NCBI GenBank assembly: GCA_027618305.1 | Contig: JAQCFD010000003.1 | Span: forward strand, 1 to 39,326 | Direction: 5' to 3' | DNA: 39,326 nt | From: Pseudomonadota bacterium | GTDB lineage: Bacteria; Pseudomonadota; Alphaproteobacteria; UBA6615 | Shown here: in pieces, positions 23,374-39,326 of the stretch | How the letters are laid out: each line of letters starts with the position of its first letter | How positions within the stretch are numbered: position 1 is the first letter of the stretch | Position numbers and translations under genes: made by a program | Notes under the pieces: generated by a model | Database searches by the model: none | What the model saw: the letters and a program-made list of their open reading frames with translations, nothing else | Told to the model about the DNA's origin: nothing

Positions 23374-23460
23374 CGCGTATCCACCGGATCAAATCTGAAT
23401 GGGGTCACACGACGAATTCGCCGTGCAATGCATAAAAGCTGCAGCTGGGAAGTGGAAGTG

Positions 23461-23514: not shown

Positions 23515-24633
23515 CTAGCGGAAGTTCTCTTGCCAAAGGTCGCGCGCAGGCTTGGCATCCTTCGCCGCCTGAACAACCCAGTCCTTCATGCCGAGCAGCT
23601 TGGTCTTATCAAGGTCAAGCAGATACGGCGCAGCTGCAGCCGGCGGCTCGTAGCCCGCACGCATGCTGTAGACGGCCTCACCTTCGACGAAGATGTCTGA
23701 ACCTTCTTTCGACAGCAGGAACTCGATCAGCAGTTTGCCGGCGTTCGGGTGCGGGGCACCTTTGAGCACGGCAACCTGGTTGCCGAGCATGACCTGACCT
23801 TCGCTGTAGGAGCCGATCTTGAGCTTGTCCTTGAGGTCCTCGGACTTGAGCACGTTCTGATACACGCGGCCCGACAGGTTCCACATGTCGAACGGACGCT
23901 GACAGGAAATGACCATCTGCATCTTCGGCTCGGTGCGGAACTCGACGAGGGGGTCGGTCTTCTTCAGTGCCGGCCAGAACTCGTTGAAGTTCACGGCGCC
24001 CGCCTCAGCCAACGCCAACGTCGTGTTGGTGTAGGTGAACGACTTGGTGATGTCGGACGAGATGGTCTTGCCGCTCAGGCTGGCCGCGACCGTGTCCGCA
24101 TAAGACGTGACGTTGAAGTTCTCCATGCCGGGGCAGGATGCGTTCCAGACCGGCTGGAACGTGTAAGCCAACGGCGTCACCACATACGGATACTTCGAAT
24201 ACTGACCGGCCTTCTCGACCAATCCCACGCTGTCTGCCCAGTAACCGCTATCGAGTTTCTCGAACGCATCGCGCTCGGCAGCGGCAGCAAAGAAGCTCGG
24301 CGCGCTGACCAGAATCAGGTCGACGGTGAACTTGCCGGCCTGAATTTCCTGGCGGACCTGCGCCACCGTGGCGCCCGTGCCCTTGCGAAGGCTGTTGAAT
24401 TCGAAGTCGTCGCCAAGATTATAGCGCGCCCTGAAAGCCTCGCCCATGCGCTGCGCCGTACGGTCGCTGAACAGAGGATGAATGATGGTGACACCACCTT
24501 CGGCCTTTGCCAGCGGCGCGAGCGCCTTTTCCTGGGCATTGAGATGGCCGTCGGCCTGCGCAACCGAACCGGCCGCGAGAAGAGCGATCGCCGACACGGC
24601 TCCCGCCCACACTGATTTACGTTGGAATTTCAT
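23515..24633 (-). CDS. ABC transporter extracellular solute-binding protein (Fe3+-type family)
   Basis: Signal peptide MKFQRKSVWAGAVSAIALLAAGSVAQA, then EKALAPLAKAEGGVTIIHPLFSDRTAQRMGEAFRARY; upstream of permease and ATPases. Confidence 0.88.
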   Translation of the reverse strand: MKFQRKSVWAGAVSAIALLAAGSVAQADGHLNAQEKALAPLAKAEGGVTIIHPLFSDRTAQRMGEAFRARYNLGDDFEFNSLRKGTGATVAQVRQEIQAGKFTVDLILVSAPSFFAAAAERDAFEKLDSGYWADSVGLVEKAGQYSKYPYVVTPLAYTFQPVWNASCPGMENFNVTSYADTVAASLSGKTISSDITKSFTYTNTTLALAEAGAVNFNEFWPALKKTDPLVEFRTEPKMQMVISCQRPFDMWNLSGRVYQNVLKSEDLKDKLKIGSYSEGQVMLGNQVAVLKGAPHPNAGKLLIEFLLSKEGSDIFVEGEAVYSMRAGYEPPAAAAPYLLDLDKTKLLGMKDWVVQAAKDAKPARDLWQENFR

Positions 24634-24733
24634 CGAATTCCTCTCCCTATGTTCATTTAGTTAACGGAACGCCACTATTTTTCTTTTTGTGTAACGGATT
24701 TGTGGGGCAGAGGGAAGAGGATGTTGTCCGGAC

Positions 24734-37904: not shown

Positions 37905-38474
37905 TTGGTATTGGCCCCCGATCAGGCTGGTTCATTCACGCTGCGCGATGCATGTGCGGATGATGCGGTGGCCGTTCAGGCGATCTACGCCACCCATGTG
38001 CTGACCGGGCTCGCCTCGTTCGAGGAAGTGCCGCCGGATGCCGGCGAGATGGCACGGCGCATGGCGGTCATTCAGGCAAAGGGACTGCCGTATATTGTCG
38101 CCGAGCGTGACGGCCGGATAGGCGGCTACGCCTATGCCAGCCCCTTTCGCGAACGTTCCGCGTACCGCTATACCGTCGAGGATTCGGTCTACGTCGCAAA
38201 TGACGCGCTGCGCCGCGGGCTGGGTCGATCCTTGCTGAACGCGGTCATCACACGCTGCACCGCAGCGGGCTTCCGGCAAATGATCGCGGTGATCGGCGAC
38301 AGCGAAAACCAGGGTTCAATCGGCCTTCACAGACATCTGGGTTTCGAAATGATCGGGACCATGCCGGCCGTGGGCTACAAATTCGGTCGTTGGGTCGACA
38401 GCGTACGCATGCAGCGCGCACTTGGCCCCGGCGCCGAAACACCACCCGGGGCCGCCGGCCACGAGCGAAACTAG
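37905..38474 (+). CDS. GNAT family N-acetyltransferase (phosphinothricin acetyltransferase-like)
   Basis: FTLRDACADDAVAVQAIYATHVLTGLASFEEVPP, YTVEDSVYVANDALRRGLGRSLL, NQGSIGLHRHLGFEMIGTMPAVGYKFGRWVDSVRMQR. Confidence 0.9.
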   Translation: MVLAPDQAGSFTLRDACADDAVAVQAIYATHVLTGLASFEEVPPDAGEMARRMAVIQAKGLPYIVAERDGRIGGYAYASPFRERSAYRYTVEDSVYVANDALRRGLGRSLLNAVITRCTAAGFRQMIAVIGDSENQGSIGLHRHLGFEMIGTMPAVGYKFGRWVDSVRMQRALGPGAETPPGAAGHERN

Positions 38475-38519: not shown

Positions 38520-38548
38520 AAAAAAAAGGGCCGTGGAAACCACGGCCC
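38520..38548 (-). terminator. Rho-independent terminator
   Basis: GGGCCGTGG-TTT-CCACGGCCC then T8 on the minus strand (plus strand A8 at 38520-38527). Confidence 0.85.
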
Positions 38549-38597
38549 GAAGTCATAGGGAGGAAACGCTTTAAAGCGACACCGCAGTACGATGCCG
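38520..38597 (-). ncRNA. Candidate small RNA (about 78 nt) with exposed anti-Shine-Dalgarno UUUCCUCCC
   Basis: Minus strand ...CGGCATCGTACTGCGGTGTCGCTTTAAAGCGTTTCCTCCCTATGACTTCGGGCCGTGGTTTCCACGGCCCTTTTTTTT: small hairpin CGCT-TTAA-AGCG, single-stranded UUUCCUCCC, intrinsic terminator; promoter-like boxes just upstream. TSS is estimated. Confidence 0.5.
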
Positions 38598-38603
38598 CAG
38601 TGC

Positions 38604-38633
38604 AATATATGCTTCTCGCATATGCGAAGACAA
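38604..38633 (-). promoter_or_regulatory. Sigma70-like promoter with palindrome in spacer
   Basis: Minus strand TTGTCT (38633-38628), 18-nt spacer, TATATT (38609-38604). Spacer contains perfect palindrome TCGCATATGCGA (38616-38627). Confidence 0.45.
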
Positions 38634-38789
38634 GCCGTTCGGGTGCATGCCGTGGTAATTAAAAGAAAATTCTCTATTCACTGAATTTCGTTGAAATAAT
38701 ATTTCGCGATTATCATGCACTGCACAATAGATAAGCAGGATTGGTGCACCCGGCCATGATGGCACGGCGTTTGCGACGTAAGTCGTGCC

Positions 38790-39326
38790 ATGACGATCAC
38801 ATTTCACAACCCCTATCGACATTTCCTGGTGTCCGCGCTCGCAGCGGCCGTTTTCACGCTGGCGGCGATCGTCGACCCATACCCCGCCAACGCTATGGAA
38901 ACGCACAGTATTTGCGCCTCGGCCATCGGCCCCGCGGAGATCGAAAGGAATATACCAAACGATCTCCTCATGGCGATCGCACATACGGAATCCGGGCGCT
39001 GGGATGCGCGCCGGCAGGCAATATTTGCCTGGCCCTGGACGGTCACAAGTGGTCCGGATGGGCGGTTTTTTCCGACCAAGGCGGAGGCCATCGACCATGT
39101 TCGCCGTTTGCAGGCGCGCGGCGTTCAAAATATCGACGTCGGCTGCATGCAGATCAATTTGCGCCATCACCCCAACGCTTTTCCCGATCTGGAAACGGCA
39201 TTCGATCCTGCGAAAAATACCGCCTATGCAGCTCAATTCCTGGGCGACCTTTTCAAAGCGCACAACTCCTGGGGCGAGGCGATACGGCGCTACCATTCCA
39301 AGAACTCGAAATTCAACCGCCCCTAT
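38790..39326 (+). CDS. Lytic transglycosylase SLT-domain protein, truncated by window end
   Basis: MTITFHNPYRHFLVSALAAAVFTLAAIVDPYPANA (signal peptide) then IPNDLLMAIAHTESGRWDARRQAIFAWPWTVTSGPDGRFFPTKAEAIDHVRRLQARGVQNIDVGCMQINLRHHPNAF; open to the end, so not in the ORF track. Confidence 0.88.
   Translation, partial: MTITFHNPYRHFLVSALAAAVFTLAAIVDPYPANAMETHSICASAIGPAEIERNIPNDLLMAIAHTESGRWDARRQAIFAWPWTVTSGPDGRFFPTKAEAIDHVRRLQARGVQNIDVGCMQINLRHHPNAFPDLETAFDPAKNTAYAAQFLGDLFKAHNSWGEAIRRYHSKNSKFNRPY

Follow-up and report, generated by a model that had tools for sequence, protein, structure and literature searches.

Organization of the locus

The window, that is, the whole stretch of 39,326 nucleotides that was analysed, carries a short minus-strand transcription unit in the 315-bp gap between the end of a GNAT acetyltransferase gene (38474) and the ATG of a divergent lytic transglycosylase gene (38790). 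The preliminary description had reported this gap as about 315 bp, and had read the minus strand as TTGTCT-18-TATATT followed by about 78 nt ending in a 9-bp hairpin plus T8; both readings were confirmed from the sequence. The features are as follows:

37905..38474, plus strand: GNAT acetyltransferase gene, neighbour (Pfam PF13420)
38520..38597, minus strand: alpha-r8/MmgR-family sRNA gene, ~78 nt (start deduced from the -10 hexamer; RF00519 match 38584-38513)
38520..38548, minus strand: intrinsic terminator, 9-bp stem, 3-nt loop and T8 (terminator scan)
38557..38566, minus strand: UUUCCUCCCU, targeting core against Shine-Dalgarno sequences, unpaired (identical in 14 family sequences; defined in SisA-D)
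38567..38578, minus strand: CGCUUUAAAGCG, alternative short hairpin (position of Rfam P1)
38576..38598, minus strand: 5' hairpin GCGGCAUCGU-ACU-GCGGUGUCGC (folding; paired in relatives)
38596..38604, minus strand: proposed -10/+1 operator TGCACTGCG, with the PhaR core of S. meliloti, YGCR-N-YGCR (motif comparison)
38604..38609, minus strand: -10 hexamer TATATT (retained in most relatives)
38616..38627, minus strand: spacer operator TCGCATATGCGA, YGCR-N2-YGCR, proposed PhaR site (family members retain it at or close to -60)
38628..38633, minus strand: -35 hexamer TTGTCT (TTGTYT in congeners)
38716..38724, minus strand: distal operator TGCAGTGCA, proposed PhaR site (position conserved in 57/164 loci, 26/60 families)
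38790..39326, plus strand: lytic transglycosylase gene (SLT domain), divergent neighbour, truncated by the window end (Pfam PF01464)

The promoter, with its 18-nt spacer, agrees with the consensus at 9 of 12 positions, and the terminator consists of GGGCCGTGG-TTT-CCACGGCCC (38548-38528) followed by T8 (38527-38520), all on the minus strand. The possibility that the hairpin terminates the GNAT gene was rejected, since on the plus strand it lacks a T-run and so does not serve that gene. The promoter and terminator consensus scan is by itself poor evidence, as it barely exceeds shuffles (promoter-like sites: 2 found, 0.4 expected; terminators: 1 found, 0.7 expected).

Family identity and distribution

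The locus matches the covariance model RF00519 (suhB/MmgR, alpha-r8) over model positions 1-77 of 77 with 53 bits, as compared to the curated cut-off of 41 bits, and RF00519 is the sole sRNA family above its cut-off in the Rfam search of this region. The locus is confirmed by this match as the organism's alpha-r8 (MmgR) sRNA gene, a further member of an established family. CcsR and alpha-r14 (NfeR1) are alphaproteobacterial sRNAs with CU-rich anti-Shine-Dalgarno loops, and the preliminary description had likened the RNA to CcsR/'cuckoo' or alpha-r14; neither matched the locus in the Rfam search at E up to 10, and this kinship was not supported.

One alpha-r8 copy was found in the window genome, a 3.12-Mb MAG of 79% completeness, and one in each of the six congeners (6/6). 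A match is present in 20 of the 24 genomes examined from the same taxonomic family and in 166 of 288 alphaproteobacterial genomes, 130 of them above the cut-off. An exact-core search matched MAG records labelled Rhodospirillaceae. The sRNA gene stands beyond chance because of the Rfam match (E 2.9e-8 for the window) and its conservation in all congeners. That there is no sRNA here and a chance promoter-like string merely precedes a stray terminator, as the weak excess of the consensus scan over shuffles might suggest, can hardly be entertained in view of the above-threshold Rfam match, the single copy in each congener and a 10-mer that stays invariant amid diverging flanks.

Like MmgR of Sinorhizobium meliloti (SmelC689, RF00519 'suhB'), the window sRNA matches the model from end to end, measures 77-78 nt and has an anti-Shine-Dalgarno core and a terminator; like SisA-D of Caulobacter crescentus, it has the UUUCCUCCCU pairing core 3' of a weak hairpin and a Rho-independent terminator. 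It differs from S. meliloti mmgR in its neighbour genes and in being known from sequence alone. It also differs from SisA-D, since Caulobacter has four copies, with SisA beside an N-formylglutamate amidohydrolase gene and CrfA acting as a sponge of SisA (PMC12559287), whereas the window shows one copy with other neighbours. Two further arrangements were seen among the loci: one alpha-r8 locus (L157) has a pair of TTTCCTCCCT cores separated by about 20 nt and may encode a double-headed sRNA, and three others (L003, L074, L077) hold three alpha-r8 genes in tandem, with PhaR-type sites placed differently for each copy.

The usual, though not obligatory, neighbour of alpha-r8 genes is an N-formylglutamate amidohydrolase gene (PMC12559287). 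It adjoins the sRNA in the congeneric loci L025 and L034; the window sRNA is not linked to it, being flanked by the GNAT and lytic transglycosylase genes. In the window, L019 and L021 the neighbours are a GNAT or biopterin-dependent hydroxylase gene plus a lytic transglycosylase gene, as compared to the amidohydrolase of L025 and L034. Such a change of neighbours within a genus may reflect either relocation of the sRNA gene or rearrangement of its surroundings.

Folding and the targeting core

The sRNA folds far better than shuffled sequences (z -5.5). In 12 family sequences, the helices of the 5' hairpin show pairing in 98% and 90% of cells, with one change on both sides. The near-direct repeat noted in the preliminary description does consist of similar segments, although these are actually the two arms of this hairpin, GCGGCAUCGU and GCGGUGUCGC, which are kept in relatives. 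The short hairpin CGCUUUAAAGCG overlaps the 5' hairpin by three bases, so that full formation of both is impossible and the two are competing structures. One congener (G001, locus L025) no longer has a clear -10/+1 site and has lost the long 5' hairpin as well, which indicates that this architecture is not universal, even within the genus.

The exact 10-mer UUUCCUCCCU lies single-stranded in the centroid folds of the window, 3' of the weak hairpin. The anti-Shine-Dalgarno segment had been described as unpaired, which holds; its conserved core is this 10-nt stretch rather than UUUCCUCCC. Both the core and the terminator are much better conserved in relatives than the diverging flanks, as the preliminary description had predicted, and its view of an independent, trans-acting sRNA that carries an anti-Shine-Dalgarno segment is supported.

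PhaR-type sites in the promoter and their conservation

In S. meliloti, MmgR limits phasin levels and the accumulation of the stored carbon polymer PHB; AniA/PhaR in turn represses it, NtrC activates it, and the dyad through which they act lies between the -35 and -10 elements (PMC7143759, PMC8401924). The mmgR promoter is bound by PhaR, which recognizes a YGCRNYGCR core; S. meliloti is the only organism from which this binding and repression are experimentally known (PMC12542648). The resemblance of the spacer palindrome to an operator, suggested earlier, is borne out: the element is conserved in the family and is of PhaR type (CGCA-TA-TGCG, YGCR-N2-YGCR), with a gap of 2 bp as compared to 1 bp in the published motif. 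The -10/+1 site reads TGCA-C-TGCG, and the distal site, 120 bp upstream of it, TGCA-G-TGCA. The window promoter thus resembles that of S. meliloti mmgR in its PhaR-type site between -35 and -10, and differs in the 2-bp gap of that site and in the extra sites at -10/+1 and ~120 bp upstream.

No site of the window matches the strict AT-armed PhaR consensus, and the YGCR-N-YGCR core is not enriched within the window alone (43 observed against 52 expected in this GC-rich sequence). Since the core is common by chance, sites in one genome mean little, and 165 alpha-r8 loci from 61 taxonomic families were therefore compared. YGCR-N-YGCR was found in 96 of 137 alpha-r8 promoters of PhaR-encoding genomes, as compared to 12.3 in shuffles. 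Its family-mean fraction is 0.70 across 58 families with PhaR, as against 0.01-0.14 for the other gaps, gap 2 being the highest; some PhaR-encoding genomes lack the motif at the alpha-r8 promoter. In many promoters the motif is located 5' of the -10 element and outside the transcript, so that more than conservation of the RNA sequence is involved. These counts suggest that the PhaR-type operator arrangement is widespread in Alphaproteobacteria.

A second, distal peak of the 1-bp-gap motif occurs between -150 and -200 relative to the core (57/164 loci, 26/60 families), where other gaps are seen in 2-12 loci. The distal-proximal spacing clusters near 119-123 bp, 118-124 bp being found in 8 of 23 families, a cluster that is weak after a one-per-family permutation (p 0.025) and forms correspondingly weak evidence for looping. 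The distal site lies 66 bp upstream of the lytic transglycosylase ATG in the window, and may instead control that divergent gene and not the sRNA; this is somewhat unlikely, given that the site keeps a similar distance from the sRNA in 26 families while the neighbour genes vary in those examined. Provisionally, within the part of the earlier mmgR literature that was covered, no earlier description of the class-wide breadth or of the distal operator was found.

Probable linkage of the operators to PhaR

The window genome encodes PhaR (TIGR01848, 161.6 bits; PF07879 and PF05233), as do all congeners. Genomes with both PhaR and alpha-r8 number 143, those with PhaR only 33, with alpha-r8 only 23 and with neither 89 (Fisher p 4e-25, a statistic that ignores relatedness and genome size). 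The proximal motif is present in 80 of 113 genomes with PhaR as compared to 2 of 23 without, many of the PhaR-minus Rfam matches being weak and not clear alpha-r8 genes; among the clear alpha-r8 cores of PhaR-minus genomes it occurs in 2 of 11, both from one incomplete MAG.

The 1-bp-gap motif also stands at all phaR promoters (7/7) and all phasin promoters (5/5) found in the genus, and in three of the five congeneric phasin promoters a 2-bp-gap element precedes it by 20-22 bp, as in the sRNA promoter. This sharing of the motif by phaR and phasin promoters appears to be the most independent support for a link to PhaR. It parallels the S. meliloti PhaR/AniA regulon, in which YGCRNYGCR occurs at the phasin and mmgR promoters, and extends to congeneric phaR promoters; the composite of 2-bp-gap and 1-bp-gap elements ~21 bp apart is not described in the publication on that regulon considered here, and the sites in this lineage are predicted. 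A search for the composite operator in the genus gave 62 matches as compared to 30 for the reversed control and is thus noisy; its AT-rich matches include the sRNA and phasin promoters. No phasin gene was found in the incomplete window genome. In the same genome (L046, 1255-2429), phaR is divergent from a Pfam-less ORF and a synthase-like gene; the region between them contains YGCRNYGCR sites that overlap.

It is quite improbable that the locus encodes an alpha-r8 sRNA whose palindromes serve another regulator, such as NtrC, or a different promoter function, with PhaR uninvolved. In S. meliloti, NtrC too works through the dyad of the mmgR promoter (PMC8401924), and no shared upstream motif is reported for Caulobacter sisA-D (PMC12559287). 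Against this reading, the motif corresponds to the PhaR core and shows specificity for a 1-bp gap; it goes together with phaR in the genomes compared (with the caveats given above), and it is found again at the promoters of the phaR and phasin genes of congeners. The promoter palindrome is most likely a docking site of the PHB sensor PhaR. With PhaR as the suggested regulator, the 'stress- or growth-regulated' sRNA of the preliminary description is better read, from the operator evidence, as carbon-storage-regulated.

Candidate targets

In seven genomes, 28 instances of the string AGGGAGGAA with a subsequent ATG were counted, as compared to one of the reversed pattern, a control that does not cover ordinary ribosome-binding sites. 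Six of 7 congeneric genomes (L242, L245, L253, L254, L255, L261) carry AGGGAGGAA at the start of a luciferase-like monooxygenase gene, in four of them within AGGGAGGAATCGCCATG; this gene is a candidate for a conserved target of the sRNA. The duplex energy of its copy in the window genome is -24.4 kcal/mol as compared to a mean of -13 for window genes, as expected from the way in which this gene was picked. The motif also precedes ATG in two genomes each for genes that we take, from reading their sequences, to encode pyruvate dehydrogenase E1-beta and a CO-dehydrogenase-type small subunit, and in one genome each for several presumed transporter solute-binding proteins; these, too, are candidate targets.

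Phasin mRNAs were rejected as direct targets, their duplex energies being ordinary and the pairing of their leaders poor. An ABC transporter cluster of the window (solute-binding protein, permease, ATPase; 23424-23432 and 23518-24636) has a TGCATTGCA site before the permease gene, and the leader of its solute-binding gene, AGGGAGAGGAA, gives the second-best sRNA pairing among 33 window genes.

Proposed mechanism and significance

The locus very probably encodes an alpha-r8 (MmgR) trans-acting sRNA that is repressed by PhaR until PHB sequesters the repressor, and that pairs with selected Shine-Dalgarno regions. Family membership, promoter, terminator, anti-Shine-Dalgarno core and conserved PhaR-type operators are the parts of this proposal drawn directly from sequence; repression by PhaR until its titration by PHB granules is what we infer from them. 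PhaR of the same genome would bind the spacer, -10/+1 and distal sites and block transcription of the sRNA; as PHB granules accumulate, PhaR would be sequestered and the sRNA made together with the phasins. The sRNA would then pair through UUUCCUCCCU, presumably on Hfq, with the Shine-Dalgarno regions of selected mRNAs, whose translation would fall; transport and carbon metabolism are the candidate target classes. The same 10-mer is the proven pairing site of Caulobacter SisA, which, with Hfq, represses mRNAs upstream of the start codon, at the Shine-Dalgarno sequence (PMC12559287).

More tentatively, PhaR control of alpha-r8 sRNAs could be ancestral in Alphaproteobacteria and involve a two-part operator, in which one or two core-promoter sites act with a partner ~100-125 bp farther upstream, DNA looping perhaps bringing them together.

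Alpha-r8 sRNAs are widespread in Alphaproteobacteria, and in the published accounts found, the activating switch is known only in S. meliloti. The PhaR reading assigns the promoter palindrome a specific, falsifiable ligand. If control by the PHB sensor is class-wide, one circuit would join the state of carbon storage to the repression of transport and metabolism by the sRNA, which would act as the post-transcriptional arm of PHB sensing across the class.
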